NCBI RefSeq assembly: GCF_014077005.1
Contig: NZ_JACGVC010000050.1
Coordinates: 124,001 to 188,000 of the forward strand
Direction of reading: 5' to 3'
Length of the DNA: 64,000 nucleotides
Source: Colwellia sp. MB3u-45
Lineage (GTDB): Bacteria; Pseudomonadota; Gammaproteobacteria; Enterobacterales; Alteromonadaceae
The translations under genes and the position numbers were made by a program. The notes beneath the pieces were generated by a model. The model saw only the letters and a list, made by a program, of their open reading frames with translations. It made no database searches and was not told the origin of the DNA. This document shows positions 1-17,531 of this stretch, piece after piece; within the stretch, counting starts at the first letter, position 1; the number at the start of each line of letters is the position of its first letter.

Positions 1-131
1 TTTTTCAACACGTTAATATGAAGTGCTATTTAGAGTAATTAATATACTTAATTAAAGGCTCTACTCAATTTTATATCTTACTGAGTAAATTAGAATTCGA
101 AAAAATCAGACTTACTGTAAATCCTGTGCAT

Positions 132-169
132 AAAAAAGCCAGTAATCAAAATGATCACTGGCTTTTTTT
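132..169 (-). terminator. Rho-independent terminator of the TonB receptor gene
   Basis: A stem AGCCAGT.../...CACTGGCT with one internal mismatch is flanked by A and T runs. It lies about 40 bp past the stop codon of the minus-strand receptor gene. Read on the minus strand the stem is followed by TTTTTTA, so it should terminate that transcript. The flanking A run makes it potentially bidirectional. Confidence 0.8.
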
Positions 170-208
170 ATGCTGATTTTTTAAACTATTTTAAAGCTAC
201 CTTGCTTA

Positions 209-2476: not shown

Positions 2477-2523
2477 TAAGTACTCTCCCAAGAACTGTTT
2501 ATGTTTTGTGTAAAGATTTTATT

Positions 2524-2553
2524 AACCTGACATTCTATATTGAATGTCAGGTT
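2524..2553. repeat. Perfect 12-bp inverted repeat between deoB and the receptor gene
   Basis: AACCTGACATTC and GAATGTCAGGTT form a perfect 12-bp stem with a 6-nt loop, just past the deoB stop and about 50 bp upstream of the receptor start. It has no T-run on the minus strand. It may therefore be a weak terminator, a processing hairpin, or an operator or attenuator for the receptor gene. Confidence 0.6.
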
Positions 2554-2565
2554 ATTAGTGTTGTT

Positions 2566-3777
2566 TCATAGCTCAAGATCAGACAAAAAGCTTGTACCAT
2601 AAGGCATCTTATCTAATTTAAATAATTCTGCGATGGTTTGACCAATATCTGCAAAGGTACTACGTTCGCCAATATTAACAGATCGTATCTGTTTGTGGAA
2701 TGCAATAACAGGTACATATTCACGTGTATGGTCATTACCATGCCAAGTTGGGTCACAACCATGATCTGCGGTTAAAAAAAGCACATCATTTTCATTCATA
2801 GCCGCAACCACTTCGGGTAAACGCTGATCAAAATTCTCTAATGCTAAAGCGTAACCTATCGGATCACGGCGATGGCCGTAGTCTTGGTCAAAATTGACTA
2901 AATTAGTAAATATCAGGCTATTGTCTTGTGCCGTATTGATATGTGAAATGGTCGCATCTAATAAAGCATCAATACCCGTGGCTTTAGTTTTTTCACTAAT
3001 ACCTTGGTGTGCATAAATATCGGCAATTTTACCCACACTGATGACATAGCCACCCGCTTGGGTAAAGGTGTCTAATACTGTGGGTGCTGGCGGTAAAATA
3101 GAATAGTCGCGTCGATTACCCGTTCGGGTAAAATTTTCAGGGCTGCTGCCAATAAAAGGTCTGGCGATAACACGGCCAACATTTCTATCAGCAAGTAACT
3201 CGCGCACTGTTTCACAATATTTATAGAGGTTATCCAAACCAAAGTGTTCTTCATGAGCCGCCACCTGAAACACGCTGTCAGCAGAGGTATAACAAATAGG
3301 CAAGCCAGTGTTAATGTGCGCTTGCCCAAGCTGGTTAATAATATCGGTACCTGATGCATGGCAATCGCCTAAAATACCCTTATAGCCAGTGGCTTGATTG
3401 ATTTTTTCAATCAAATCTGCGGGGAAGGCGTTACCTTTTTTTGGAAAGTAGTCCCAATCAAATAATACTGGCACCCCCATCATTTCCCAATGGCCACTTG
3501 GCGTGTCTTTACCTGTACTAATCTCAGCCGCATAACCATACGCACCCTGCACAGGTGCTTGCTTTGCCACAGGGAAACTAGCTTTACCCGCTTCAAAAGC
3601 GGCTTGAACCAAGCCCATTTTTGCTAGATTAGGCAATTTAATTTCACGTTTTTCGTGCTGATAAAAATGTCGTGCTAGGTTAGCAAAAGTATTGGCACTG
3701 ATATCGCCAAAGTCTGCCGCATCGGGCGCATGCCCAATACCAAAACCGTCGATTACTAAAACTATTGCTCTTGCCAT
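2566..3777 (-). CDS. deoB: Phosphopentomutase
   Basis: Interconverts (deoxy)ribose-1-phosphate and (deoxy)ribose-5-phosphate, linking nucleoside phosphorolysis to the DeoC aldolase. At 403 residues it has the usual length (about 407 in E. coli). Alkaline-phosphatase-superfamily metal motifs are visible at both ends: VIDGFGIGHAPDAADFGD near the N-terminus and LTADHGCDPTWHGNDHTRE near residue 340. DTPSGHWEMMG carries the phosphorylated-residue region. A RutR-type palindrome lies about 80 bp upstream. It is transcribed toward the receptor gene, and divergently from udk-nupC-deoC-tdk. Confidence 0.96.
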   Translation of the reverse strand: MARAIVLVIDGFGIGHAPDAADFGDISANTFANLARHFYQHEKREIKLPNLAKMGLVQAAFEAGKASFPVAKQAPVQGAYGYAAEISTGKDTPSGHWEMMGVPVLFDWDYFPKKGNAFPADLIEKINQATGYKGILGDCHASGTDIINQLGQAHINTGLPICYTSADSVFQVAAHEEHFGLDNLYKYCETVRELLADRNVGRVIARPFIGSSPENFTRTGNRRDYSILPPAPTVLDTFTQAGGYVISVGKIADIYAHQGISEKTKATGIDALLDATISHINTAQDNSLIFTNLVNFDQDYGHRRDPIGYALALENFDQRLPEVVAAMNENDVLFLTADHGCDPTWHGNDHTREYVPVIAFHKQIRSVNIGERSTFADIGQTIAELFKLDKMPYGTSFLSDLEL

Positions 3778-3853
3778 TTTAATTTCCCGTTATTAGATCG
3801 TTGCATTTTAACAAATTCTTCAAATTTATCCTCGTTTATAGCGATAAATTTCA

Positions 3854-3867
3854 TGACCAAATGGTCA
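3854..3867. promoter_or_regulatory. RutR-type operator palindrome between deoB and udk
   Basis: TGACCAAATGGTCA is a perfect 6-2-6 palindrome matching the core of the E. coli RutR consensus TTGACCA-N2-TGGTCAA. It sits between divergent deoB and udk, 77 bp from the deoB start, and could control one or both directions. A RutR-like regulator is encoded at 13511. Binding is inferred, not shown. Confidence 0.75.
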
Positions 3868-4068
3868 GCATGTGGTACTTTACCAAGCAATAAATTATAG
3901 ACAATAGATATTTTATAAATATTTAAGGCACAGAACACCCTTTTGCCTAAATTTTAATGAATTTCAATATAATTAGTTCATAATATGAATGCGTTGACTT
4001 ATTCACAACAGCATCACAATAAATAATAACTTAACCCTTTTTTAATCACATTTTTAAGGCTCTCTGTT

Positions 4069-4713
4069 TTGCAAACCAATAAACCGACGATTATTGCGGT
4101 AACCGGTGCTTCGGCATCTGGTAAATCACTTTTTGCGCAAACTATTTACGATGAACTATTACCTGAGCTAGGGTCAAGTGGTATTGCTATTATCAAAGAA
4201 GATGCTTACTACAAGCATCAATCGCATCTCTCGATGGCTGAACGTATAAAAACAAATTATGATCACCCTAACGCTTTTGAACATAGTTTGTTGTCACAAC
4301 ATTTAAGTCAGTTAAGTGCCAATAAAAGCGTTGATATACCTACGTATTGTTATAAAACACATACCCGATTAGATGACACTCAACATTTAGCACCCACACC
4401 CATCATTTTAATTGAAGGTATTCTTTTATTTGCCGATCAAGAACTGAGAGACAAATTTGATATTAAAATATATATTGATACCCCGCTCGATATTTGTCTA
4501 GTGCGCAGAATAAAGCGAGATACCCTTGAACGTTCTCGCAGCATAGCGTCAATCACCGAACAATACTTAACCACAGTTCGACCTATGTACCACCAACATA
4601 TACAGCCAAATAAAACCTTTGCCGATATTGTAGTGACGCGTGGTGGCAAAAATAGAATGGCAATAGAAATGCTAAAAGCAAAAATTCGTCAACTCATGCA
4701 AAGACGTCTTTAA
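4069..4713 (+). CDS. udk: Uridine/cytidine kinase
   Basis: Phosphorylates uridine and cytidine to UMP and CMP in the cytoplasm for pyrimidine salvage. The 214-residue protein has a Walker A loop (GASASGKS) near residue 15. The PRK/uridine kinase features ITEQYLTTVRPMYHQHIQP and the acidic IKEDAYYKH segment are also present. The start appears to be TTG at 4069, preceded by TAAGG about 10 bp upstream; no in-frame ATG lies nearby. It is the first gene of a plus-strand run udk-nupC-deoC-tdk and diverges from deoB across a RutR-type site. Confidence 0.9.
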   Translation: MQTNKPTIIAVTGASASGKSLFAQTIYDELLPELGSSGIAIIKEDAYYKHQSHLSMAERIKTNYDHPNAFEHSLLSQHLSQLSANKSVDIPTYCYKTHTRLDDTQHLAPTPIILIEGILLFADQELRDKFDIKIYIDTPLDICLVRRIKRDTLERSRSIASITEQYLTTVRPMYHQHIQPNKTFADIVVTRGGKNRMAIEMLKAKIRQLMQRRL

Positions 4714-4803
4714 ATTTGCACGATTTGAACAAGCAATAAAATTAAAAATTGATGTCATTAAAATAAATATAATAACGATAACAAAACAATTTATGAGGTA
4801 ATT

Positions 4804-6048
4804 ATGGAATTAGGTGCACTTAGAGGCGTCATTGGCATTTTCGCGTTATTGGCAGTGGCGGTCTTTTTCTCTAAAGATCGCAGCGCAATTAATTGGCGAA
4901 CCGTAGGTTTTGCCTTTGCATTACAGATATTACTCGGTGCATTTGTACTTTATGTGCCCTTTGGTAAAGATATTTTAGGCTCGATAACCAATGGCGTTCA
5001 ACAGGTTATCAACAGTGCACAAGCCGGCATAAACTTCTTGTTTGGTGGTTTAGGTACCGATGCCATGTTTGATAACGGCGTTGGCTTTGTTTTTGCTATT
5101 CGTGTATTGCCGGTTATTATCTTTTTCTCATCGCTTATCGCCGTACTTTACTACCTTAATATTATGCAATGGGTAGTAAAAATTATCGGCGGTGGCTTAC
5201 AAAAACTATTAAAAACCTCTAAACCTGAGTCATTATCTGCCACAGCTAATATATTTGTTGGCCAAACAGAAGCCCCCTTAGTTATCCGCCCTTATATCGC
5301 CAAAATGAGTCAATCAGAGCTTTTTGCCATTATGGTCGGTGGTTTAGCCTCGGTTGCAGGCTCTATATTGGCTGGCTATGCTGGCTTAGGCGTGAAGCTT
5401 GAATACTTAATTGCTGCCTCGTTTATGGCCGCACCTGGTGGCTTGCTAATGGCAAAACTACTCATGCCTGAAACAGAGGTCATTAACAATGATTACAGCG
5501 ATGTAGAGTTGGCTGAAGCAGAAGCTAAACCAGTGAATGTTATTGATGCGGCGGCAACTGGCGCTGCTTCAGGTTTAAAGCTGGCGGTTAACGTTGGCGC
5601 CATGTTACTGGCTTTTATTGCCATTATTGCATTACTTAATGCCATGGTCTCAGGTTTTGGCAGCTTATTAGGCTTTGAAGGCGTAACAATTGAATGGCTA
5701 CTGGGCTATATTTTTGCCCCTTTTGCCTACCTTATTGGCGTGCCATTCGACGAGATGTTGCAAGCAGGTAGCTTTATCGGCCAAAAAATTGTCGTTAATG
5801 AGTTCTTTGCCTACGTAAATTTTGTTGAAATTAAAGATACCCTTTCCCCAACAACTCAAGCGATTATTACCTTTGCTTTATGCGGCTTTGCTAACTTATC
5901 TTCCATTGCCATTTTATTGGGTGGTATTGGCTCAATGGCACCTAATCGTCGCCCTGACATTGCACGACTAGGTATGAAAGCCATGTTAGCAGCAACTATG
6001 GCTAACTTAATGAGCGCCGCTATTGCTGGGGTTTTTGTCAGTTTATAA
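4804..6048 (+). CDS. nupC: Concentrative nucleoside transporter NupC
   Basis: Inner-membrane H+- or Na+-coupled nucleoside symporter of the CNT family, 414 residues, bringing in the substrates for the surrounding deo genes. Family features include the N-terminal hydrophobic helices, the G-Q-T-E-A-P motif (FVGQTEAPLVIRPY) near residue 155, and the conserved GFANLSSIAILLGG segment near residue 365. It starts at ATG 4804 with TGAGG upstream. It lies 90 bp after udk and 107 bp before the deoC start. Confidence 0.93.
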   Translation: MELGALRGVIGIFALLAVAVFFSKDRSAINWRTVGFAFALQILLGAFVLYVPFGKDILGSITNGVQQVINSAQAGINFLFGGLGTDAMFDNGVGFVFAIRVLPVIIFFSSLIAVLYYLNIMQWVVKIIGGGLQKLLKTSKPESLSATANIFVGQTEAPLVIRPYIAKMSQSELFAIMVGGLASVAGSILAGYAGLGVKLEYLIAASFMAAPGGLLMAKLLMPETEVINNDYSDVELAEAEAKPVNVIDAAATGAASGLKLAVNVGAMLLAFIAIIALLNAMVSGFGSLLGFEGVTIEWLLGYIFAPFAYLIGVPFDEMLQAGSFIGQKIVVNEFFAYVNFVEIKDTLSPTTQAIITFALCGFANLSSIAILLGGIGSMAPNRRPDIARLGMKAMLAATMANLMSAAIAGVFVSL

Positions 6049-6155
6049 TCAACTAAAAGCTGTAAAGGTTTAGCTTTCAGTTTTAAGCTGTCAGCTCTCA
6101 GTTATTTGGGATTAGTTATTAGTGATTAGTGGGCAATTTGGGTTTTGAGGTGAAG

Positions 6156-6929
6156 ATGAGTACTATTGAACAATACGCACAGTGTGCACTTAACATGATG
6201 GATTTAACCAGTTTAACTGACGTTGAAAGTGCCGATGATATTATTCAGCTTTGTCAAAAGGCTAAATCACCTTGTGGTAACACCGCCGCTATCTGTATCT
6301 TCCCGCGTTTTGTGCCCTTAGCGAAAAAAGCCTTAGCGGCACAAGGTACGCCTGAGATAAAAATTGCTACTGTGACTAACTTCCCACACGGTAACGACGA
6401 TATTGATATTGCTGTCGCTGAAACTAAAGCCGCTGTTGCCTATGGCGCAGATGAAGTCGATGTTGTATTTCCTTACAAAGCCTTAATAAAGGGTAATGAC
6501 AAGGTGGGCTTTGAACTCGTAAAAGCCTGCAAACAAGCTTGTGGCAATAACACAAAACTGAAAGTTATAATTGAAACCGGTGAGCTTAAAACTGACCAGC
6601 TTATTACTCAAGCCAGTGAAATTTGTATCGCTGCCGGCGCTGACTTTATTAAAACCTCAACCGGTAAAGTTGCAGTAAATGCCACACCTAGGGCAGCTGA
6701 ATTGATGCTAAAGGTCATTAAAGCTAAAAATATTGAGGTAGGCTTTAAACCTGCTGGCGGCGTAAAAAACGCTGAAGATGCTGCGGTTTATCTTGATTTA
6801 GCGGCTAATATTTTAGGCGCAGACTGGGCGACTAATGCTCACTTTAGATTTGGCGCCAGTAGCCTATTAACCAACTTACTTAATACCTTAGGGTCGAGTA
6901 ATAAAACGGCTGAGCCAACAAGCTATTAA
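6156..6929 (+). CDS. deoC: Deoxyribose-phosphate aldolase
   Basis: Cleaves deoxyribose-5-phosphate to acetaldehyde and glyceraldehyde-3-phosphate, the last step of deoxynucleoside catabolism. The Schiff-base lysine lies in FIKTSTGK and the second catalytic lysine region in [21 protein letters not shown] is the conserved substrate segment. I start at ATG 6156 (MSTIEQY) because TGAGG is 5 bp upstream; a further in-frame GTG at 6129 would add nine atypical residues. That gives 257 residues against 259 in E. coli. Confidence 0.95.
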
Positions 6930-6991
6930 GTACATTGCACCCAACAGGTTATATAGCCCCCAACAACCCTAATTAGGATATCAATATAGCG

Positions 6992-7570
6992 ATGGCGCAA
7001 TTATATTTTTATTATTCAACCATGAATGCCGGTAAGTCGACTCACTTATTACAGTCTTCGTATAATTATCGTGAACGTGGTTTAAACACATTGCTGTTCA
7101 CCGCACAAATTGATGACAGATTTGCCAAAGGCAAAGTCTCATCTCGATTAGGTATCCATGCTGACGCCTTATTATTTGATGATAAATCAAACATCTTCGA
7201 GCAAGTAAAATGCCAAATAAGTAGTAGAAAAATTGCTTGTATATTAATTGATGAAGCCCAGTTTTTAACTACACAGCAAGTTAGGCAATTAACCGATATT
7301 GTCGATGAATTAAAAATTCCCGTTTTAGCTTATGGTATTCGTACCGACTTTCTCGGTGAAACCTTTGTTGGTAGTGCAGCACTGCTCGCCTGGGCTGATA
7401 AATTAGTAGAGTTAAAAACCATTTGTCATTGCGGTAAAAAAGCAAATTTTGTTATGCGCTGTGATGAACATGGCAATGCGGTTAAAGGTGGCAAACAAAT
7501 AGAAGTGGGTGGTAATGAGCGTTATGAGTCTTTATGTCGCCGGCACTTTAAAGCCCTTGTTTGGCATTAA
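6992..7570 (+). CDS. tdk: Thymidine kinase
   Basis: Phosphorylates thymidine (and deoxyuridine) to the monophosphate. The 192-residue type II enzyme has a P-loop MNAGKSTHL near residue 12, a Walker B-like LIDEAQFL near residue 88, and the lasso and zinc-site cysteines CHC...C and CRRHF in the C-terminal half. It follows deoC by 62 bp and ends the plus-strand salvage run at a strong terminator. Its presence beside deoA means thymidine can be either salvaged or degraded here. Confidence 0.95.
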
Positions 7571-7608
7571 CTAAGCAACTACCCTATTTACATTAAACAT
7601 AACTCGTA

Positions 7609-7637
7609 AAAAGGAATGCCATGGCATTCCTTTTTTG
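7609..7637 (+). terminator. Strong terminator after tdk
   Basis: AAGGAATGCC and GGCATTCCTT form a perfect 10-bp stem with a 2-nt loop followed by a T-run. It lies 40 bp after the tdk stop, between convergent tdk and deoA. Confidence 0.9.
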
Positions 7638-7700
7638 TTGTGCTTATTTCAATAGCGCTAATTTATTAATACGACTCTATTCATACAAAGTTTATTAAAA

Positions 7701-9017
7701 CTAAGCGGAAATGGTTTGATAAATAACCGGTTGTTGCTCAGCCTGCTTGCTATCAATCACTAAAGCCCCTTGATACTGTAGACTAGCTAGTAGTGCTGAG
7801 CTTTCATCTCTAGCATGCACTCGAGCCACCACATCACCACGGTTAACTAAAGTGCCAATGGGTAATACTCTGTCAAAACCAACACTATGGTCAATTTGCT
7901 GACCATTTGCTGTGCGTCCACCTTTTAAGCCCACCACAGCCAAGCCAATATCACGGGTTTGCATAGCATTAATATAACCGTGATCTAGTGCAATAACATC
8001 TTTAATACATGCGGCGCGTTGCATTGAACGCCAAGGATCTTCCAGAAAGTCACTTGGACCACCCAAGGCATGGATCATTTTACTGAATATTTCAGCTGCA
8101 GCGCCAGAGGTCAGTGCATGGTTAATTTTTACTAATGCGGCATCTTCATTATCCACAACTTTTGCGCTAACTAACATAGCTTTAGCTAATGCAACTACCA
8201 CGCCATGCAAACGAGGTTCACGCAGCGAGCCAGTTAAATATTTAACCGTTTCGGCCATTTCCAAGGCATTACCCGCGGTTGCACCTAATACTTGGTTCAT
8301 ATCAGTGATAATAGCTTGTGTCGGTACACCGGCGCCATTAGCCACATTAACAATACTTTGTGCTAGCGCTTTGGCATCAGCAATATTTGACATCATAGCG
8401 CCGTTACCCACTTTGACGTCCATGACTAAAGTATCAAGCCCTGCTGCTAATTTTTTTGACAATATAGACGCAGTGATCAGGGGTATAGATTCCACCGTGG
8501 CAGTAATATCGCGTATGCCATATAAGCGTTTATCGGCAGGCGCTAAATTATCCGTTTGAGAGATAATCGCCATACCCAAATCTTTTACAATCGCTTTAAA
8601 TTCAGCAATACTGGGTTGAACATTAAAGCCGGCAATACTTTCTAGTTTATCTGCTGTTCCGCCGGTGTGGCCCAAACCACGCCCTGCAATCATAGGAACA
8701 TAAGCACCACAAGCGGCCACAATAGCCGCTAACATAAAGCTGACCTTGTCGCCAACACCACCGGTTGAATGTTTATCAACCACTGGGCCGTCTAATTCTG
8801 GCCACGACAACACATCACCTGAATTTTTCATCGCCATGGTAAAGTCGATAATTTCACGGGTTTGCATGCCCTTTTGAAAAATTGCCATGGCCATTGAACC
8901 GGCTTGAGCATCATTAAAATCTAAGGTAACTAAACCATCAACAAAGCTTTGAATTTGTGCTTGCGAGAGTGAACCACCATCACGTTTGGTACGAATTATT
9001 TCTTGCGGTAATAACAT
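7701..9017 (-). CDS. deoA: Thymidine phosphorylase
   Basis: Phosphorolysis of thymidine or deoxyuridine to base plus deoxyribose-1-phosphate, which then feeds DeoB and DeoC. The 438-residue protein matches the family length. The conserved signature KHSTGGVGDKVSF lies near residue 84, with GRGLGHTGGTADKLES following. A C-terminal pyrimidine-phosphorylase domain ends in QPVIYQTISA. The start ATG at 9017 has AAGGA upstream, and the cdd stop lies in that ribosome-binding region. The 12-bp gap makes cdd-deoA an operon. Confidence 0.96.
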   Translation of the reverse strand: MLLPQEIIRTKRDGGSLSQAQIQSFVDGLVTLDFNDAQAGSMAMAIFQKGMQTREIIDFTMAMKNSGDVLSWPELDGPVVDKHSTGGVGDKVSFMLAAIVAACGAYVPMIAGRGLGHTGGTADKLESIAGFNVQPSIAEFKAIVKDLGMAIISQTDNLAPADKRLYGIRDITATVESIPLITASILSKKLAAGLDTLVMDVKVGNGAMMSNIADAKALAQSIVNVANGAGVPTQAIITDMNQVLGATAGNALEMAETVKYLTGSLREPRLHGVVVALAKAMLVSAKVVDNEDAALVKINHALTSGAAAEIFSKMIHALGGPSDFLEDPWRSMQRAACIKDVIALDHGYINAMQTRDIGLAVVGLKGGRTANGQQIDHSVGFDRVLPIGTLVNRGDVVARVHARDESSALLASLQYQGALVIDSKQAEQQPVIYQTISA

Positions 9018-9029
9018 GAACTAAAATCC

Positions 9030-9449
9030 TTATTTTTCAAGTAAATCTTTGGGCGTAAAAGCATCAGGTAATAATTCATTAACTGTCCATTGCTTTTGAT
9101 CATTGTTGTGATTAACCGCCATAACAAGTGCATCGGGCGCTAAAAATTCAACAATAACTTGTCGACAAGCACCACAAGGTGGCGTCAATTTTTCTTGATT
9201 AGTATAAATGACAATGGCTGAAAAGGCTTTTTCACCTGAAATAACCCCTTGGGCTAAACAATTACGTTCAGCACAAACGGTTAGGCCGTAAGAAGCATTC
9301 TCTACATTGCAGCCTTTAACTATTTTGCCGCTAGCGGTTAACGCTGCCGCACCAACATGAAAGTTACTATAGGGTGCATAGGCGTTTTCAAAGCCCGCTT
9401 TCGCGGCATTAACCAATCTTGATATTACATTATCTTCAATATTTGACAT
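9030..9449 (-). CDS. cdd: Cytidine deaminase
   Basis: Deaminates cytidine and deoxycytidine to uridine and deoxyuridine, feeding DeoA. The 139-residue homotetrameric-type enzyme has the catalytic glutamate and zinc ligand in NVENASYGLTVCAERN. The other two zinc cysteines are in PPCGACRQV. It is the first gene of the cdd-deoA operon, and a RutR-type palindrome sits 17-30 bp upstream of its start codon, where a bound repressor would block transcription. Confidence 0.96.
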   Translation of the reverse strand: MSNIEDNVISRLVNAAKAGFENAYAPYSNFHVGAAALTASGKIVKGCNVENASYGLTVCAERNCLAQGVISGEKAFSAIVIYTNQEKLTPPCGACRQVIVEFLAPDALVMAVNHNNDQKQWTVNELLPDAFTPKDLLEK

Positions 9450-9465
9450 TATAAAAGCCTTTATC

Positions 9466-9479
9466 TGACCAAGTGGTCA
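9466..9479. promoter_or_regulatory. RutR-type operator upstream of cdd-deoA
   Basis: TGACCAAGTGGTCA is a perfect 6-2-6 inverted repeat (centre AG), extended by an A at 9480. It sits immediately upstream of the cdd ribosome-binding region. It shares both arms with the site at 3854 and matches the E. coli RutR consensus, so the two genes are probably co-regulated. Confidence 0.8.
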
Positions 9480-9602
9480 ACTTATGTTCTATCGTAGTAA
9501 ATCAGTAGGAGAAATGCAACTGAAAAAAGCGTTAAATAAAATCTATTACAGCGTATTGTAATCAACTTATTTTTCGCACGTTATTTAACGGTAGATTAAA
9601 AG

Positions 9603-9637
9603 GTAAAAAAAAAGCCAACATTACTGCTGGCTTTGTT
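9603..9637 (-). terminator. Terminator of the Oar-like receptor gene
   Basis: AGCCA and TGGCT with a GC extension flank a short loop. On the minus strand the stem is followed by nine T residues, about 20 bp past the receptor stop codon. Confidence 0.8.
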
Positions 9638-9655
9638 AGTAAGGTTTATGAATGA

Positions 9656-12600
9656 TTAGAAGGTATATTTAACACCAATCTTCATAGACCATGTAGACTC
9701 ACGATCTTGGAATCTAGCAGGTGACTCTCCTGCAGAAATATTTGCACTTTCGTACACGTATTGACCGCCATCATTAATGCTGTAATCAAGTAATTCTGTT
9801 GCAGATTGACCAAATGGTAATTGGTAAACGCGTGCAGCACCTTCATCAAAAATAGCTAATGCGTTTTTAATATCAACATAGAACAAACCTTTATGCCCAG
9901 TTAAGAAACCTGGAATTTCTTGTTCAAAGCGTAAATCCATCGTCGTTGTCCAAGGCGCTGTATAAGCATTCTTGTCAAGATAACCACCATCAGAGCTAAT
10001 ACCCGCTGTTGCTAACTCGGCCATAATTTCGTCGTAGCTTAAGCCATTATCAAAATCGACAGCACCGTCACTAGCACCCGTTGGAATATAAGGTAAGTTA
10101 GCGGTAGTAAGATCTAAGTTGCCTGACAAACCGTCACTGTCGTTATAACCTAACAAGTAACTAAATGGTCTACCTGATTTACGCTCCCAAAACATATGCA
10201 TACCTGTGTTATAACCTTCAAACATTTCAGTATTATATGAAAGGTTGAACGTTAAACGATGCTTAACTTGGTAGGCTGATGTACCAATAGTAGGATTCTC
10301 AGGATCAACAACCGGGTTAAAGTTATATGCTGTATTTGATGAAGTACCAGTAGCATCTACACGATTACGAATAGTTGAATGAGTATATGAGAAGTTAGCT
10401 TTAAAACCGCTCTGCCAGTTCTTTGCAATGCTCAATGTTTCAATTATCGTATGACCACCAGACGTATTAGTCAATAACACATCACGAGCTTCTCTATCAG
10501 CATTAGCAAAAGTATAAATTGGGCGGCCTTCAACAGTTAGACCACCATTTCCTTTTGAGGTATCTAAAGTACGAGAAAGATCAGACCAAGCCATGTCTTT
10601 CTGGATATTTTTATAAAGTACTTCACCACTTATGCGCCAATCATCACCTAAACCTATGTCACTTAAATTAGCAACATAATCTGCAGCTAAGCTGTATTGC
10701 CATGTAGTAGGGATTTCGAAGTTTGGATCAATAGCATCAATATTAGAGTTTGGTCCACCTAACTCAGATTGAGCAATTTGGTCTTGCGCAGTTTGTGGTA
10801 TGCCACTTGGATCAGCATCTTGCAAAAATGCTGCGCTGCTACTGCGATATAATGCGATTCTAGAACCGTCATTACTGAACGCATTTGAGATGAATACATT
10901 GGGACGGCCACCACTAAATAGACCAGCGCCACCACGGATAGTCAACTCATCAGTTGCGCTCCAAGTAAAGCCAAAACGTGGTAAAATGATGTCTAAGCCG
11001 TCAAGGTTTTCATTATTGGCATAAGCATAGCGATCGAAGAAGCTTTCATTAAAGTTTGGTGCATCATCATTCACCGTTGATTCATAACGTAAACCATAAG
11101 TTACGTTAAGTGAATCATTTACATCCCAACTATCTTCAATATAAAAAGCGTGATTTTCAAGCGCAAACTCAGCGGCTGCATCATCACGGTTTAAGCTCGG
11201 GTTATTTTGATATTCAAAAAATCCTGCATTGCCAGCTTCAAAGTCATCAATGCTATCAAAATACCAAGAACCTAAATAATGCTGCATGAAAAGGTTATAA
11301 ACATCTACTTTTTCGTATTCCCAACCAAATGAAATCGCATGATCTTCATACAAATAATCACCACTGATACGAACTTGTAAGGTCTCATTGGTTAACTGGT
11401 TTGCGTGGCGACTGTCATCAGCGCCCAACATAATTTCGCCGCCATTAACGGTGTCAATTTTAACTTCACCAAATTCATAGCCACCTAGTGATACTTGACC
11501 GTTAATAGATTCTTTTTTCGATACCTTAACTTCTGTTGAAAATTCTTGAGTCCAGTTTGAAAATACTTGAGCAACATAAGTGTCAAACTCGTTAGAGCGA
11601 TTATACCAATGAGAAGATAAATACAAGTCATCAGAGTTACCACTACCCTGATTACCGGCGCTATTACTAGAGCCATGCGCATAGGTAAAAGTCGCACGAT
11701 GATCTTCATTAATATTCCAATCTAACTTCAATGAATATTTTTCATCTTCTAGTGGAATAGAGTTATCCCAACTACCGGCATCATAACCATATTTACTTTT
11801 AGCAATATTGACCACACGATCAACTTCTGCTTGCGACACTTGGCTAACTTTGTTGGCTACATTTGCATCTGACGGGCCTTTGTCTACCGAACTGGGTGAT
11901 TCAAAAGTTTCGTATGACGCGAAGAAGAAGAGTTTGTCTTTAATAATTGGACCGCCGAAAGTTGCACCCCAAGTCTCTTCATCAAATTTTAAAGCAATTT
12001 TATCGCCATCATCTGTTTCAGGTGTTCCTGCCCAAGCATCTTTAGCTTGCTCAATAAACATAGAACCATGAAACTCGTTAGTACCCGATTTAGTTACTAC
12101 GCTAACTTTACCACCTGAAAAACCACCTTCTTTAGCGGTAAATGGCGCAATAGCAACACTAATTTGAGCAATTGAATCAAAAGCAATAGGAGAACGCTCT
12201 GTAGGGTAACCGTTACCGGCTAAACCAAAGTCATCGTTAAGGTTCACACCGTCAACCGCTAAACTGTTATATTTAGGGTTACTACCTGCTAAAGATAAGC
12301 TATTGCCATCATTACTAACAACAGCCATTGGATTTTGTCGAACAATATCTTTTAAATCACGGTTAAATGCGGCTGATTTAGTTAAAGCATCACCACTAAA
12401 GACACTTGATGAGCCTTTTGACGGGTCAAAAAATGTTGAAGAACCTGTTACCGCAATACGCTCAATATTAGTATCTTCTAATACTTCACTGATTCGAAAT
12501 ACATCACCTAAAGTAATGTAAATACCTTTAAGTGTTTTATCTGCATAAATATCAGAGTCGATCGTGACGGTGTATGGACCACCAACACGTAAACCTTGTG

Positions 12601-12817
12601 CAGAAAAATTACCTGTGTCGTTAACTTTTAAAGTTTTACGAGTACCTGAAGGTTCGTGAACAATAGTAATAGTAGCATCAGTAACAACACTGCCATTGTT
12701 GGTTAGAATGTTACCGCGCATTGACGATGACGTATCATCAGCCATGGCCGATGTTGACAATCCAAACGCAAGTACAATTGCGCCAGTAATCCTTGAGAGA
12801 CGATGATTTTTCATCAT
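9656..12817 (-). CDS. Oar-like TonB-dependent receptor with carboxypeptidase-regulatory-like domain
   Basis: A 1053-residue outer-membrane receptor. A signal peptide ends near STSAMA-DD. It is followed by a carboxypeptidase regulatory-like beta-sandwich (RGNILTNNGSVVTDATITI), a plug domain (KDIVRQNPMAVVSNDGN to GGFSGGKVSVVTKSGTNEFHG), and a long barrel ending in KIGVKYTF. The start has AAGGAATAAT directly upstream. Oar-type receptors take up large or peptide-like substrates in several marine bacteria. Here the neighbours (RutR-like regulator, secreted nuclease-fold protein, alkaline phosphatase) suggest nucleic-acid breakdown products (inference). It is transcribed away from the regulator. 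Confidence 0.9.
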   Translation of the reverse strand: MMKNHRLSRITGAIVLAFGLSTSAMADDTSSSMRGNILTNNGSVVTDATITIVHEPSGTRKTLKVNDTGNFSAQGLRVGGPYTVTIDSDIYADKTLKGIYITLGDVFRISEVLEDTNIERIAVTGSSTFFDPSKGSSSVFSGDALTKSAAFNRDLKDIVRQNPMAVVSNDGNSLSLAGSNPKYNSLAVDGVNLNDDFGLAGNGYPTERSPIAFDSIAQISVAIAPFTAKEGGFSGGKVSVVTKSGTNEFHGSMFIEQAKDAWAGTPETDDGDKIALKFDEETWGATFGGPIIKDKLFFFASYETFESPSSVDKGPSDANVANKVSQVSQAEVDRVVNIAKSKYGYDAGSWDNSIPLEDEKYSLKLDWNINEDHRATFTYAHGSSNSAGNQGSGNSDDLYLSSHWYNRSNEFDTYVAQVFSNWTQEFSTEVKVSKKESINGQVSLGGYEFGEVKIDTVNGGEIMLGADDSRHANQLTNETLQVRISGDYLYEDHAISFGWEYEKVDVYNLFMQHYLGSWYFDSIDDFEAGNAGFFEYQNNPSLNRDDAAAEFALENHAFYIEDSWDVNDSLNVTYGLRYESTVNDDAPNFNESFFDRYAYANNENLDGLDIILPRFGFTWSATDELTIRGGAGLFSGGRPNVFISNAFSNDGSRIALYRSSSAAFLQDADPSGIPQTAQDQIAQSELGGPNSNIDAIDPNFEIPTTWQYSLAADYVANLSDIGLGDDWRISGEVLYKNIQKDMAWSDLSRTLDTSKGNGGLTVEGRPIYTFANADREARDVLLTNTSGGHTIIETLSIAKNWQSGFKANFSYTHSTIRNRVDATGTSSNTAYNFNPVVDPENPTIGTSAYQVKHRLTFNLSYNTEMFEGYNTGMHMFWERKSGRPFSYLLGYNDSDGLSGNLDLTTANLPYIPTGASDGAVDFDNGLSYDEIMAELATAGISSDGGYLDKNAYTAPWTTTMDLRFEQEIPGFLTGHKGLFYVDIKNALAIFDEGAARVYQLPFGQSATELLDYSINDGGQYVYESANISAGESPARFQDRESTWSMKIGVKYTF

Positions 12818-13138
12818 ATTATTCCTTGGTATAAGTTAAATTTTTATTTGTTAAGTGTTTTATGTAAGTTTTACTGAGCTAATTTTAAGCTCTTTATTAT
12901 TTTTTAGTGCTATCTCGGTGAAATTAAAACAGAGTTTTCTTACATTATCATTACAAAATTTTACAGGTCACCTGCTGAGAATTTACATTTTTTAACTTCA
13001 CAAAACAGCAAAACAAAGCGAATGCGCTTAAAGCTATAAATAACAACAGCCTAACCTTGTTTTTAAAACATGACTAAAAATAGCTTATAACTATAGTCAC
13101 ATTAAAACAGATTAACTATAACAAAAAATGATAAAAAC

Positions 13139-13152
13139 AAACCATTTGGTCA
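13139..13152. promoter_or_regulatory. Partial RutR-type operator
   Basis: AAACCATTTGGTCA has a perfect right arm (TGGTCA, plus one A) and four of six matching bases in the left arm. It lies roughly midway between the receptor and regulator starts, so it could serve either promoter or be an accessory site. Confidence 0.5.
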
Positions 13153-13171
13153 AGATAAAATAAAGTATGAT

Positions 13172-13211
13172 TTTATCTAAGTTAATAAAGGCCTGTATTA
13201 ACTTAGATAAA
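13172..13211. repeat. Perfect 16-bp inverted repeat with an extra arm copy
   Basis: TTTATCTAAGTTAATA and its exact reverse complement are separated by 8 nt (AAGGCCTG). The first 11 bases of the arm (TTTATCTAAGT) recur at 13227-13237. Three copies of the same word within 70 bp look more like protein-binding sites than a terminator; no T-tract follows the stem. Confidence 0.65.
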
Positions 13212-13319
13212 TTAACCATAGGTAAATTTATCTAAGTCAACTATTTTTAAAAATATCAAAAAATGCTGATGAAAGAAGACCAAACTTATTAAACAGTGTC
13301 TTAACACTATATTTAAACT

Positions 13320-13333
13320 AAACTGGCCAGTTT
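13320..13333. promoter_or_regulatory. 14-bp perfect palindrome AAACTGGCCAGTTT
   Basis: A perfect even-symmetry palindrome lies 177 bp upstream of the RutR-like gene. It differs from the TGACCA-type sites and is of a form used by dimeric repressors. The cognate factor is unknown. Confidence 0.45.
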
Positions 13334-13510
13334 TTAACTCCTCAGCATGAGTTTATTGATATATGTACCAGATTAACTCCGTAAAATTTTTAACAATTTT
13401 ACCAGTGTTAATAGTAATTTTTATTGGCTGAGCATAAGCTAACAACTGTAATATTGACCTAATAAAATAGTGTTAATGACTATAAAAATATAAACAGAAA
13501 GGTTATTCGC

Positions 13511-14143
13511 GTGAACAACAATACCAGCAATGAAAAGCAAGGAAGTATTCGGGCCCGAAGTGAAGCTATTATTTTAGCGGCGGCCCAAAAAGAGTTTATT
13601 CTCCAAGGTTTTAAAGGTGCTACCGTTCAATCTATTGCCGATAGCGCGAATCTGCCTAAAGCAAACGTATTATATTATTTCAAAAATAAAGAAAATATTT
13701 ATCATGCGGTATTACAGTTAACCTTAGATACCTGGGATCAAGGTATTGGTGAACTTGATATTAACGACGGTCCTGTTGTGGCGATTGAAAAATTTATTGC
13801 TTCGAAAGTAAAAATGTCTTTTGAACACCCTCAGGCATCAAAAATTTATGCCATGGAAATCATACAAGGGGCGTTGCATTTAAAAGAGTTTTCTCGCACT
13901 TATTTACGCCAATGGGTAAGAGAAAAAGCTAAAGTATTTCAAGTGTGGATAGATAGCGGTGAAATGAAAAATGTTGATCCGGTAAAACTTATTTTCTTAA
14001 TTTGGTCTTCAACTCAACATTATGCTGATTTTGAACAACAAATATTAACCATTATGAATCGTGCCGATTACGAAGAAGACGATGTAACCCAAGTAACCGA
14101 GTTTTTAACTGATTTTATATTACGGGGTTGCGGCCTAAAATAG
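13511..14143 (+). CDS. RutR-like TetR-family regulator
   Basis: A 210-residue one-component repressor. The N-terminal HTH (VQSIADSANLPKANVLYYFKNKENIY) covers residues 35-62. The C-terminal ligand domain shares with E. coli RutR, as I remember it, the segments HPQAS, ME..QGA and especially LIFLIWSSTQHYADFEQQ. RutR senses uracil and thymine and binds TTGACCA-N2-TGGTCAA. Matching sites occur upstream of cdd, deoB/udk and in its own upstream region. It starts at GTG 13511 with AGAAAGG upstream. It is probably co-transcribed with the next gene, whose ribosome-binding site overlaps its stop. The rut pyrimidine-degradation genes are not in this window. Confidence 0.88.
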   Translation: MNNNTSNEKQGSIRARSEAIILAAAQKEFILQGFKGATVQSIADSANLPKANVLYYFKNKENIYHAVLQLTLDTWDQGIGELDINDGPVVAIEKFIASKVKMSFEHPQASKIYAMEIIQGALHLKEFSRTYLRQWVREKAKVFQVWIDSGEMKNVDPVKLIFLIWSSTQHYADFEQQILTIMNRADYEEDDVTQVTEFLTDFILRGCGLK

Positions 14144-14151
14144 GAATTTAT

Positions 14152-15372
14152 ATGCGAGTATTAAGCTATTTACTGACAACTACCTTGTTAGTCTATTCAG
14201 GTATTGCTATGTCACAAACGTCAAATAGTTCAAGTCCAACCTCAAGCTTACGCATTGCTACTTTCAATGTCAGCATGGAAGCATTAAATTACTTACCTGC
14301 AAAATTAGGTAAAGAACAAAAGCCGACAGGAAATGAGTTAGCCGTAGCGTTAGTAGAAAATCATCAGCAAATTAAAAATATTGCTGAAATTATTCAACGC
14401 GTAAATCCTGATATTATTTTATTGAATGAATTTGACGGTAATGACCCTAAACATCAATCACTAAAACGCTTTTTAAGCAATTATCTAGCAAAAAGTCAGC
14501 AAGGTCACACGGCGGTTAACTACCCCTATTTTTATCAAGGCCCAGTTAATACGGGTGTTGCTTCTGGTGATGACTTAAATAACGACAACAAAGTAGGTGA
14601 ATTACCCAATGATGCCTATGGTTATGGGCTTTTTTCAGGGCATTTCGCCATGGCATTGTTATCTAAATATCCTATTGTTGAAGAGAAAATCAGAACCTTT
14701 CAACTGTTTAAATGGCGCGATATGCCAAACGCCTTAATACCCGTAAATCCTGACTCAAAAACACCTTGGTATAATGAACAAGCCTGGAGTAATTTTAGAT
14801 TATCATCTAAATCTCACTGGGATATACCACTGAACGTCAATGGTAATGAAGTTCACATTTTGGCAAGCCATCCTACCCCACCAGTATTTGATGGGCCAGA
14901 AGATAGAAACGGTAAACGAAACTTTGATGAAATACGTTTTTGGACTGATTACCTAACCCCGAGTGCTGCCAGTTATATTTATGACGACAATAAGCACTTT
15001 GGTGGTTTAGCTCAAGATAAAGCTTTTGTTATATTAGGTGATTTAAATGCCGATGCTATAGAGGGCAGTGCAATAAAGTCGGGCATTGATCGCTTAATCA
15101 ATCATCCCCGTGTTATTGATGCCAAGCCAAGTAGCGAAGGTGGAAAGTTACAGCGAAATAATAATGCCAATGCAAAATATCACACGGCATTTTGGGGCAT
15201 GCGAGCTGATTATGTTTTGCCTGCAAAAGCACAATTTAACGTACTTGGCTCAGGTATATTTTGGCCAAAAGAAAATGAAGCTGAGTTTCGTTTAATTAAA
15301 GACCGTGCTGCCTCGTCAGATCACCGACTTGTTTGGGTGGACCTAGCGTTTAAAAATCCAATTAATAAATAA
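14152..15372 (+). CDS. Secreted endonuclease/exonuclease/phosphatase-family protein
   Basis: A 406-residue EEP-fold metal-dependent phosphoesterase with an N-terminal signal peptide (MRVLSYLLTTTLLVYSGIAMSQ), so it acts in the periplasm or outside. Catalytic motifs are NEFDG near residue 93, ILGDLNADA near residue 300, and the C-terminal SSDHRLVW. The fold includes DNases, nucleotidases and phosphodiesterases; the exact substrate is not determined. A nuclease or nucleotide-phosphodiesterase role fits the nucleoside locus (inference). Start ATG 14152 has AGGAA overlapping the regulator stop; an in-frame TTG at 14128 is less likely. Confidence 0.85.
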   Translation: MRVLSYLLTTTLLVYSGIAMSQTSNSSSPTSSLRIATFNVSMEALNYLPAKLGKEQKPTGNELAVALVENHQQIKNIAEIIQRVNPDIILLNEFDGNDPKHQSLKRFLSNYLAKSQQGHTAVNYPYFYQGPVNTGVASGDDLNNDNKVGELPNDAYGYGLFSGHFAMALLSKYPIVEEKIRTFQLFKWRDMPNALIPVNPDSKTPWYNEQAWSNFRLSSKSHWDIPLNVNGNEVHILASHPTPPVFDGPEDRNGKRNFDEIRFWTDYLTPSAASYIYDDNKHFGGLAQDKAFVILGDLNADAIEGSAIKSGIDRLINHPRVIDAKPSSEGGKLQRNNNANAKYHTAFWGMRADYVLPAKAQFNVLGSGIFWPKENEAEFRLIKDRAASSDHRLVWVDLAFKNPINK

Positions 15373-15388
15373 CTGTTCTATATCAACC

Positions 15389-15425
15389 GAGTTAAATTCG
15401 ACAGAGTTAAATTCAACAGAGTTAA
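15389..15425 (+). repeat. 15-bp direct repeat (2.5 copies) upstream of alkaline phosphatase
   Basis: GAGTTAAATTCGACA, GAGTTAAATTCAACA and GAGTTAA are consecutive with exact 15-bp spacing. They sit 40-75 bp upstream of the phosphatase start. This may be slippage or a direct-repeat binding site; it does not match the 11-bp spacing of Pho boxes. Confidence 0.6.
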
Positions 15426-15463
15426 GCAGTTATATTTACCAATAATATTTAACGGAAATCAAT

Positions 15464-16894
15464 ATGAAAAAATTCATTCCAACCTTATTAACCAGCTTGA
15501 TGATCTTGTCTTGTGGTCAGCTACAAGCATCTGATGATGCTAAAACAAGCACTATTGCAGACAGTAGCCCGAAAAATATCATTATGATTATTGGTGATGG
15601 TATGGGCCCAGCATATACCAGTGCCTATCGCTATTTTCATGACGACCCTAATACAGCTGAAATAGAACAAACAGTTTTTGACCGTCACTTTGTCGGTAAT
15701 AGCAGTACCTATCCAGCTGCTGAGTCAGGTTACATTACCGACTCAGCCGCTAGCGCTACCGCATTATCAACCGGTATTAAAAGCTATAATGGCGCTATCG
15801 GCGTCAATGTTAACAAACAGCCCGTTGAAACCGTTTTGGAATATGCCAAACAAAGTGGCAAAAAAACCGGTGTTGTGCTTACCTTGCAAATTAATCACGC
15901 CACCCCTGCGGCTTATTTAGCTCATAATGTTCATCGCTATAATTACAATGCTATTGCCGACAGTTACATTGATGATGGCATCAAAGCCGACTTATATTTT
16001 GGTGGTGGCTGGAAATACTTTATTCGTGAAGATAGAAATATTGTTGATGAGTTTATAGAATCAGGTTTCCACTACATTGATAAATATAGTGAAATAAGCA
16101 CTATCCCAGCAAATAAACCCGTACTAGGTTTATTTGCTAAAACTGGTTTACCTTGGGCCTTGGATGATACTAACAAGTACCGTTTATCCATGATGACACA
16201 AGCGGCAACAAAGCAATTAGAAAATGATAACGGCTTCTTCATGTTAATTGAAGGTAGCCGAATTGACTATGGCGGACACGCTCGAGATATTGCCGCCGCT
16301 ATGCATGAAATGGACGATTTAGCCAAAACCTTAGAATACCTTGAAACTTATGTTAAAGAACATCCAGATACCTTAGTGGTGATCACAGCCGATCATAGTA
16401 CTGGTGGCTTAAGTATTGGTAAAAAAACTGAACGCTCTAACGCTAATATCAACAGTAAATATTTATGGAAGCCAGAATTTTTACGTAGCATGACCATGTC
16501 ACCAGAAACAATAGCAAAACGTTTTATGGATAAGGAATTATCTCTGACACAACTGGGTGAGTTGCTGTCATTTAAAATAACAGCTGCAGATATGGAAAAT
16601 TTACAACAAGCTAAACTTGCTGATCACCAAGTTGTTAAGCAATTTAAATTATTAGCTGCTGATGTAAAAAAAGCTAAAAGAAAGCCTAGACCATACCAGT
16701 CTGTACTTAATGTTATCACCAAAATTATTGATATAAAAACCAACACAGGTTGGGGATCAATTAGTCCTTCAGGTACCCATACCGGTATCGATGTGCCTGT
16801 ATTTGCCTTTGGCAAAGGCAGTGAAATGTTTTCAGGTTTTCAAGACAACACTGACATTGCCAAGAAAATTTTCACCCTATTAGGTAAAAAATAA
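15464..16894 (+). CDS. Exported alkaline phosphatase
   Basis: A 476-residue phosphomonoesterase of the PhoA superfamily, exported by an N-terminal signal. The segment MILSCG is a possible but weak lipobox. Metal and catalytic motifs are IGDGMGPAY (about residue 44), ITDSAASATA with nucleophile Ser near 94, EGSRIDYGGHARD, VVITADHSTGG and SPSGTHTGIDVPV. It lies 91 bp after the EEP-fold gene and could dephosphorylate nucleotides released by it, giving nucleosides for import. The start has AACGGAAATC upstream, and a strong terminator follows. Confidence 0.92.
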   Translation: MKKFIPTLLTSLMILSCGQLQASDDAKTSTIADSSPKNIIMIIGDGMGPAYTSAYRYFHDDPNTAEIEQTVFDRHFVGNSSTYPAAESGYITDSAASATALSTGIKSYNGAIGVNVNKQPVETVLEYAKQSGKKTGVVLTLQINHATPAAYLAHNVHRYNYNAIADSYIDDGIKADLYFGGGWKYFIREDRNIVDEFIESGFHYIDKYSEISTIPANKPVLGLFAKTGLPWALDDTNKYRLSMMTQAATKQLENDNGFFMLIEGSRIDYGGHARDIAAAMHEMDDLAKTLEYLETYVKEHPDTLVVITADHSTGGLSIGKKTERSNANINSKYLWKPEFLRSMTMSPETIAKRFMDKELSLTQLGELLSFKITAADMENLQQAKLADHQVVKQFKLLAADVKKAKRKPRPYQSVLNVITKIIDIKTNTGWGSISPSGTHTGIDVPVFAFGKGSEMFSGFQDNTDIAKKIFTLLGKK

Positions 16895-16927
16895 AACTTC
16901 GTTATACCTACAGAAATAGTAAAACAA

Positions 16928-16982
16928 AGCAAAAGGCCGAGTAGTTTATAAATTATTTATAACTTGCTCGGCCTTTTGCTTT
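16928..16982 (+). terminator. Very strong bidirectional-type terminator
   Basis: AGCAAAAGGCCGAG pairs perfectly with CTCGGCCTTTTGCT, and the intervening A+T-rich bases also pair, giving a stem of more than 20 bp. It ends the alkaline phosphatase transcript. Confidence 0.9.
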
Positions 16983-17531
16983 ACTCTGTCCTGAAATGTG
17001 TTTTACCTGCAAGCGTATATTAGAACCTGTTGTGTAGACATGTCATAAAAAATGAGAATCGCGTCACGAGGTGAGAAAAATTAACATCATATGTGACTAC
17101 GAATAATGTTTGAGACTACTAATCACTAAATTAGATTAACTGCTAATGATCACTTTTGCCACATAGAAGACCTAATTCACGCGTAAATTTATCTCCATAA
17201 ATAGTCCGATCTGCTACTACAGGCCGCGTTCAGAATGAATTTATAACGCTAATTAATTGCGTGTAAAAATCGTTAGCTATTGGTTGTTCTTTAGGTCAAC
17301 TGATCGCTAACAGATGACCTAGATGAGTTAATTTTAATTACTCCTTTTTCTTGCAAGCGCTACTCTCAATCTAATGTCTGCTACATGCTGGGATAGATGA
17401 CATTAGCATATATTTCCTAAGGCGCTTTCGTCCACAATATTACTATTAGGCTAACATCCACTGTATCGGTTAAAATGCCCCTTATAGATGGTGACTGAGT
17501 CATCTATGGCGAAACAAAAAGGTAAAAAGAA
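16983..17531. other. Non-coding gap with several inverted repeats
   Basis: No gene is seen in this 549-bp stretch. It contains TAGGTCA/TGACCTA arms (17292-17298 and 17315-17321), CTAATGTC/GACATTAG arms (17371-17378 and 17399-17406), and ATAGATG/CATCTAT arms (17484-17507). All are upstream of the monooxygenase gene and may include its operators. Confidence 0.5.

Follow-up and report, generated by a model that had tools for sequence, protein, structure and literature searches.

Which regulator controls the genes for deoxynucleoside catabolism in Colwellia sp. MB3u-45? In enteric bacteria the deo genes are controlled by CytR, a LacI-type regulator which senses cytidine, and by DeoR (DeoR-type), which senses deoxyribose-5-phosphate. 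The stretch analysed here, called the window throughout, comprises 64,000 nucleotides of contig NZ_JACGVC010000050.1 (positions 124,001 to 188,000, forward strand; coordinates below are those of the window) and shows, from left to right, deoB on the reverse strand, udk-nupC-deoC-tdk on the forward strand, deoA and cdd on the reverse strand, a gene encoding an Oar-like TonB-dependent receptor on the reverse strand, and, on the forward strand, tetR and the genes encoding an endonuclease/exonuclease/phosphatase-family (EEP) protein and an alkaline phosphatase. The tetR product, encoded from 13511, is quite likely a RutR-family, TetR-type repressor which controls deoxynucleoside catabolism and would be released by a pyrimidine base, and genome comparison strongly supports the predicted regulon. 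The regulator gene and its three predicted operators are:

3854..3867, no strand: operator 1 (predicted), TGACCAAATGGTCA, between deoB and udk, exact TGACCA-N2-TGGTCA
9466..9479, no strand: operator 2 (predicted), TGACCAAGTGGTCA, 17 bp above the cdd ATG, exact TGACCA-N2-TGGTCA
13139..13152, no strand: operator 3 (predicted, degenerate), AAACCATTTGGTCA, in the receptor-tetR gap, preceding tetR, two mismatches
13511..14143, forward strand: TetR-family regulator, RutR-like (PF08362, by Pfam), whose best matches by sequence and by fold are RutR

A first-pass annotation of this DNA had reported two perfect palindromes and a partial third, and all three are present: exact matches at 3854 and 9466 and the two-mismatch copy AAACCATTTGGTCA at 13139-13152. 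The consensus of the E. coli RutR operator is TTGACCA-N2-TGGTCAA, and the core with its N2 spacer is the same here. The 14-mer is not scattered over the 4.17 Mb genome (4,165,602 bases), in which the positions 3854 and 9466 are the only exact matches, and the same pattern written backwards has none. With up to one mismatch the genome contains nine matches, against four for the backwards pattern; six one-mismatch matches lie outside the window (L003-L007 and L009), all of them within mechanically called open reading frames (ORFs), L006 at the start of one. The window shows six matches with up to two mismatches where 1.59 are expected, a number reached by two of 100 shuffles. Besides the three above, these are the copies at 9807 (one mismatch) and 11809 (two mismatches), both in the TonB-receptor ORF, and at 45262 (two mismatches). 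The copy at 9807-9820 was not counted as an operator, being within the receptor coding sequence; four of the 15 genus relatives share it, their receptors being 84% identical or more, and it is absent from two other relatives despite a receptor 88-95% identical. A wider motif, CTTGACCANNTGGTCAAG, with up to three mismatches, is found at 15 places in the genome (seven for the backwards control), and the exact core only at 3854 and 9466.

The 13511 product contains a TetR_N domain (PF00440) and the YcdC/RutR C-terminal domain (PF08362, E 7e-45), both over cut-off (152.9 bits, cut-off 25, and 42.8 bits, cut-off 24), and it is the only PF08362 protein of this genome. E. coli RutR supplies the top three matches of a PDB sequence search (E about 1e-35), and the identity to it is 35% over residues 8-208. 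The ligand domain had been described as close to RutR, and its HPQAS and LIFLIWSSTQHYADF do align with YPQAS and LIFMIWASTQHYADF of RutR. A structure model was built from 20 orthologs (mean predicted local distance difference test score 79.2, with weak stretches around 120-130); the top eight Foldseek matches of this predicted model are RutR chains, with TMq 0.72-0.79 and E values of 7e-11 or better, compared with 1.5e-6 for the next structure. The label RutR-type holds by domain, predicted fold and operator, and does not extend to RutR itself, since the protein scores below the cut-offs of both RutR equivalogs (TIGR03613, 165.2 vs 368 bits; PRK15008, 142 vs 230 bits) and belongs to a separate clade. 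In a tree of 101 rows, which has many long outgroup branches and whose deeper branching order is unsure, the 13511 product is in a clade of 68 rows (support 100/100) apart from E. coli RutR, which groups with two rut-like rows (support 97/91). The 68 rows are the 13511 product and 67 of the 80 loci L110-L189: 12 loci were left outside the clade (L176, L177, L179 and L181-L189), and L180, removed by a length filter, has no row in the tree. These loci belong mainly to Colwellia, Cognaticolwellia, Thalassotalea, Litorilituus, Psychrosphaera and Pseudocolwellia. The 13511 product, a member of this separate branch, would probably act as RutR does.

Conservation of the sites at orthologous promoters was found in the related genomes. 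The exact site is located 16-18 bp upstream of cdd in 15/15 genus relatives (16/16 counting the own genome), and an exact site is also present between deoB and udk in 15/15 (16/16 counting the own), 12 of them in the same locus and the remaining three in a relocated deoB-udk block (L051, L190 and L199). In the regulator gap, which has otherwise diverged, the site stands out as a conserved block in 16/16 genus members, the own genome included (two mismatches in 15, three in the remaining one); among other genomes, the receptor-tetR gap shows an exact copy in G027 and G028, a one-mismatch copy elsewhere in the gap in G023, and three mismatches in G017. The 13139 site could possibly serve autoregulation, control of the receptor, or both. 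Among the 68 of the loci L110-L189 that were assigned to the clade (L180 included), a site with up to one mismatch is found above cdd in 47/52 and above udk in 16/16, and a site with up to two mismatches is found in the receptor-tetR gap in 46/60; these denominators are the loci holding the gene with enough upstream sequence (more than 400 bp for udk), cdd being counted where the receptor was also found. The clade loci contain 50 exact sites in the 61.8 kb of the three gaps and two in the remaining 1,218 kb, with none for the backwards pattern; with up to one mismatch there are 75 sites in the gaps and 17 outside (backwards pattern, seven in all), and with up to two mismatches 193 sites against 74 backwards. 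Loci L110-L189 partly repeat members of the genome set, so the two sets are not independent.

The sites also co-occur with the regulator. An ortholog, defined by a threshold of 300 bits, is encoded in 20 of 36 genomes of the family sample, and these 20 genomes contain 48 exact sites, 39 of them at cdd (19), deoB/udk (18) or the receptor-tetR gap (two). The others are located at pgi (five), adenosine deaminase (one) and a secreted Endonuclease I (one), and two, which may be there by chance, lie upstream of an oxaloacetate decarboxylase operon (L198, G005) and of a chemotaxis receptor (L200, G028). The 40 genomes without an ortholog, 16 of the family and 24 of the order, one of them (G007) a 66% complete assembly, contain 23 exact sites. 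None of these has a homolog of the twelve window genes as a neighbour in the flanks inspected, about 2.5 kb in either direction (1.6-2.4 kb for L317 and about 10 kb for L104). The proposal of a RutR-type regulon at deo and cdd is sustained as regards the sites, conserved and co-occurring with the regulator, and corrected as regards the protein, whose proposed response to uracil or thymine may differ. In G034, which has no ortholog, two exact palindromes (L202, 2556 and 2621) are 65 bp apart between an unrelated TetR-like gene and a transporter-like gene, where another TetR may use the same motif. In G030, which has paralogs only, an exact palindrome (L305, 2526) is upstream of a ribokinase-like gene which scores below the ribokinase cut-offs.

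Alignments of the 16 genus promoters show conserved -35/-10-like blocks directly upstream of both operators. The candidate promoters, read by eye from conserved columns, are:

3877..3904, reverse strand: candidate deoB promoter, TTGTCT-N16-TAAAGT, the operator beginning 9 nt past the -10
9491..9519, reverse strand: candidate cdd promoter, TTGCAT-N17-TACGAT, the operator about 10 nt past the -10

In the deoB alignment the operator ranks first in conservation among the 14-bp windows of the gap (0.96 vs a mean of 0.55), and in the cdd alignment it ties for second place (0.94 vs a mean of 0.63), the first-ranked window overlapping it. With the operator starting about 10 nt past the -10, a repressor could block initiation there. 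The ligand-free dimer would sit on TGACCA-N2-TGGTCA just downstream of the cdd-deoA and deoB promoters, the latter facing udk-nupC-deoC-tdk, and also on the weaker copy in the gap between tetR and the outer-membrane receptor. Deoxynucleosides entering the cell would be acted on by DeoA and Cdd to yield a pyrimidine base, thymine or uracil, which would bind between two tryptophans and so release the operator. We infer DNA binding, repression rather than activation, autoregulation, the use of extracellular nucleic acids, and a nucleobase such as thymine or uracil as the inducer.

The gene assignments of the window agree with Pfam or NCBIfam profiles:

2566..3777, reverse strand: deoB, phosphopentomutase, proposed target (NCBIfam PRK05362, 562.6 bits, cut-off 256)
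4069..4713, forward strand: udk, uridine kinase family, proposed target (Pfam PF00485)
4804..6048, forward strand: nupC-type Na+/nucleoside transporter (Pfam Nucleos_tra2_N, Nucleos_tra2_C and Gate)
6129..6929, forward strand: deoC, deoxyribose-phosphate aldolase family (Pfam DeoC)
6992..7570, forward strand: tdk, thymidine kinase (Pfam TK)
7608-7635: terminator-like hairpin 3' of tdk (consensus scan)
7701..9017, reverse strand: deoA, pyrimidine-nucleoside phosphorylase (Pfam Glycos_transf_3 and PYNP_C)
9030..9449, reverse strand: cdd, cytidine deaminase, upstream of deoA, proposed target (NCBIfam PRK05578 and TIGR01354, over cut-off)
9656..12817, reverse strand: Oar-like TonB-dependent receptor with a carboxypeptidase-regulatory domain, possible target (Pfam OMP_b-brl_4, CarboxypepD_reg and Plug)
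14128..15372, forward strand: endonuclease/exonuclease/phosphatase-family protein adjoining tetR (Pfam Exo_endo_phos; synteny)
15464..16894, forward strand: alkaline phosphatase (Pfam Alk_phosphatase; synteny)

A second TonB-dependent receptor is encoded at 209-2491, on the same strand as deoB and directly after it. Twelve of the 15 genus loci have it next to deoB, as do the relocated blocks of G010 and G014, and it may be part of the same uptake system. Neither RutA nor a dihydropyrimidinase scoring over cut-off was found by searches of this genome, which encodes a uracil phosphoribosyltransferase.

Sites outside the locus suggest which other genes the regulon may include. Above pgi a site is located 140-157 bp upstream in eight of 13 close genus orthologs (five exact and three with one mismatch; L210-L222). 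One of the two adenosine deaminase (add) genes of G003 shows an exact site, and 16 other add loci show none. In G001 (L195) an exact site at 2471 is about 90 bp above an ORF, starting at 2577, for a secreted protein that combines an Endonuclease I domain with a lamin-tail domain and is likely an extracellular nuclease; no Endonuclease I was found in the genome of MB3u-45. In Colwellia sp. 75C3 and 12G3 (L154 and L163) a second clade member adjoins a TonB receptor, with one-mismatch sites above a transketolase gene and above another Endonuclease I gene, followed by deoD. In G023 (L320) another Oar-like receptor gene and udk have a common gap with an exact site. These sites, together with the nuclease and phosphatase beside tetR, point to nucleic-acid scavenging, to which the role of the regulator probably extends.

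Paralogs of the RutR family at about 40% identity are encoded in 12 of 16 genus relatives and are absent from this genome; across Alteromonadales the identity of such paralogs is 32-43%. Of 21 paralog loci retrieved, seven had their neighbours annotated: six of them carry genes of purine catabolism (urate oxidase, guanine deaminase, ureidoglycolate lyase, xanthine dehydrogenase and adenosine deaminase) and the seventh was checked for a TonB receptor only. Five paralog loci of Alteromonadales (L089, L091, L101, L102 and L104) adjoin genes for urate oxidase, amidohydrolases including guanine deaminase, xdh, ureidoglycolate lyase, malate synthase G and adenosine deaminase. The palindrome is found near some paralogs, exact in L104 and L090, and Tyr97 is kept in 20/20 paralog rows. 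Among the outgroups at about 50% identity, those of Hahella and of a metagenome-assembled genome (MAG) adjoin xanthine dehydrogenase and that of Thalassolituus adjoins a xanthine permease and an 8-oxoguanine deaminase, with an exact or one-mismatch palindrome nearby. Given this purine-gene context and the nearby palindromes, the deo clade looks like an offshoot of purine-catabolism regulators which would have retained the operator.

Like E. coli RutR (YcdC), the 13511 product is a TetR-family protein with PF08362 which keeps W77, W167, Q171, Q179 and K52; it differs in its proposed targets, which are deo, cdd, udk and nupC instead of rutA-G and carAB, in the replacement of Tyr97, in the equivalog scores and in the absence of RutA from the genome. 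The Alteromonadales paralogs belong to the same family and differ by their purine-gene neighbours and by retaining Tyr97. CytR and DeoR control the same kind of targets in enteric bacteria, and the regulator here is TetR-type. The RutR operator is described, in the text available, as a palindrome of about 16 bp, and uracil is contacted by W77, W167 and Q171, by Y97 via water, and by the Q179 of the partner subunit (PMC10891134). Four of these five contacts are identical in the own protein, which has Phe at position 97. W77, Q171, Q179 and K52 are kept in 68/68 clade rows and W167 in 66/68. The deo clade likely keeps a pocket for a flat base. In the literature searched, of partial coverage and with RegPrecise outside it, RutR-type control of deo genes was not found, and a single paper contains both RutR and Colwellia (PMC5343134). 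As far as its accessible text goes, that paper also works by comparative genomics and describes RutR regulons averaging 10.9 genes across 68 genomes from 13 taxa, classed as pyrimidine catabolism; it names Colwellia psychrerythraea for another regulator and leaves the RutR targets of each taxon to RegPrecise, which may already list this regulon as RutR of Alteromonadales. DeoR* of Shewanella is likewise a local nucleoside-utilisation regulator in marine gammaproteobacteria, of the Crp family instead of TetR, and the text of the paper on it does not mention RutR (PMC3223726).

Several observations weigh against a RutR-like deo regulon released by a pyrimidine base. None of the 68 clade rows has Tyr at position 97, where 62 have Phe and six have Ile, and the Phe of the own protein means that its effector may differ from that of RutR. 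Of the 33 rows outside the clade, 31 have Tyr; Thalassolituus has F and a MAG has M, and both of these belong to the closest outgroups and adjoin purine genes, so loss of Tyr97 marks the clade and is not tied to deo targets alone. The site in the regulator gap is two mismatches off in this genome, 14 of the 60 clade loci show no receptor-gap site within two mismatches, and five of the 52 cdd promoters show none within one. In this genome the 450 bp preceding add, and those preceding each of the two nearest pgi copies, contain no site within two mismatches. The deoB and cdd promoter elements are weak and were not flagged by the consensus scan. The comparison with ortholog-less genomes covers their exact sites and the genes beside them. 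In G023 the exact cdd-deoA site clusters with a purine-type paralog (a 43% relative) and adenosine deaminase (L090, 9987-13484), and the deo-clade ortholog is on another contig; this paralog may own the site, in which case the two branches may share an operator.

This G023 site, and the two exact sites beside the unrelated TetR-like gene of G034, would suit a reading in which the palindromes serve a different transcription factor and the RutR-like gene has no part in their use. Such a reading is very unlikely, since this genome has no paralog, sites and regulator co-occur across genomes, and G027 and G028 have an exact copy within the regulator gap itself. That the palindromes are hairpins of a leader RNA, or arose by chance, is hardly credible: operator 2 does lie in the likely cdd leader and is listed by the scan as a terminator-like stem, but the letters themselves are conserved, beyond mere pairing, the distance from palindrome to deoB varies from 77 to 236 bp, an Rfam search of positions 1-20000 gave no match, and exact sites are enriched in the gaps of the clade loci (50, compared with two elsewhere).

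The remaining alternatives concern the ligand. The protein could be a plain RutR, a uracil sensor whose regulon gained the deo genes and in which Tyr97Phe is neutral, an explanation which is possible though doubtful. The shared operator core and the four retained uracil contacts are consistent with it, as are the RutR regulons of the 68 genomes, with Colwellia psychrerythraea among the genomes discussed in the available part of that study (PMC5343134); against it stand the equivalog scores (165 and 142 bits for cut-offs of 368 and 230), the grouping of E. coli RutR with the two rut-like rows outside the 68-row clade, the lack of RutA and of a dihydropyrimidinase over cut-off in this genome, and the change of Tyr97 in 68/68. 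A RutR-family regulator which senses a deoxynucleoside, deoxyribose phosphate or, like its relatives, a purine base is rather unlikely. The nearest outgroups and most annotated paralogs do adjoin genes for xanthine dehydrogenase, urate oxidase, guanine or 8-oxoguanine deaminase or xanthine permease, and Tyr97 is lost as well in the purine-linked Thalassolituus and MAG proteins; on the other side, the first gene of the best site encodes a pyrimidine enzyme, and the stacking between two Trp and the two Gln contacts suit a small flat base, to judge from the available text (PMC10891134). A bolder and equally tentative extension, improbable as a whole, is that the clade arose from purine regulators and became a switch for DNA foraging, in which loss of Tyr97 would make thymine or thymidine preferred over uracil, and receptor, secreted nuclease, phosphatase, uptake and deo genes would be induced together, with pgi or transketolase in some species. 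Such a preference for thymine would let the cell tell the breakdown of DNA from that of RNA.

If the 13511 product is the pyrimidine-released repressor favoured here, deoxynucleoside catabolism in this marine group would answer to a nucleobase sensor of the TetR type, in place of the CytR/DeoR control of enteric bacteria. The family would then provide a test case of a regulator which keeps its operator while its targets, and perhaps its ligand, change, one pocket residue being foremost, and the regulon would be a marker of nucleic-acid foraging in Colwellia-type genomes.

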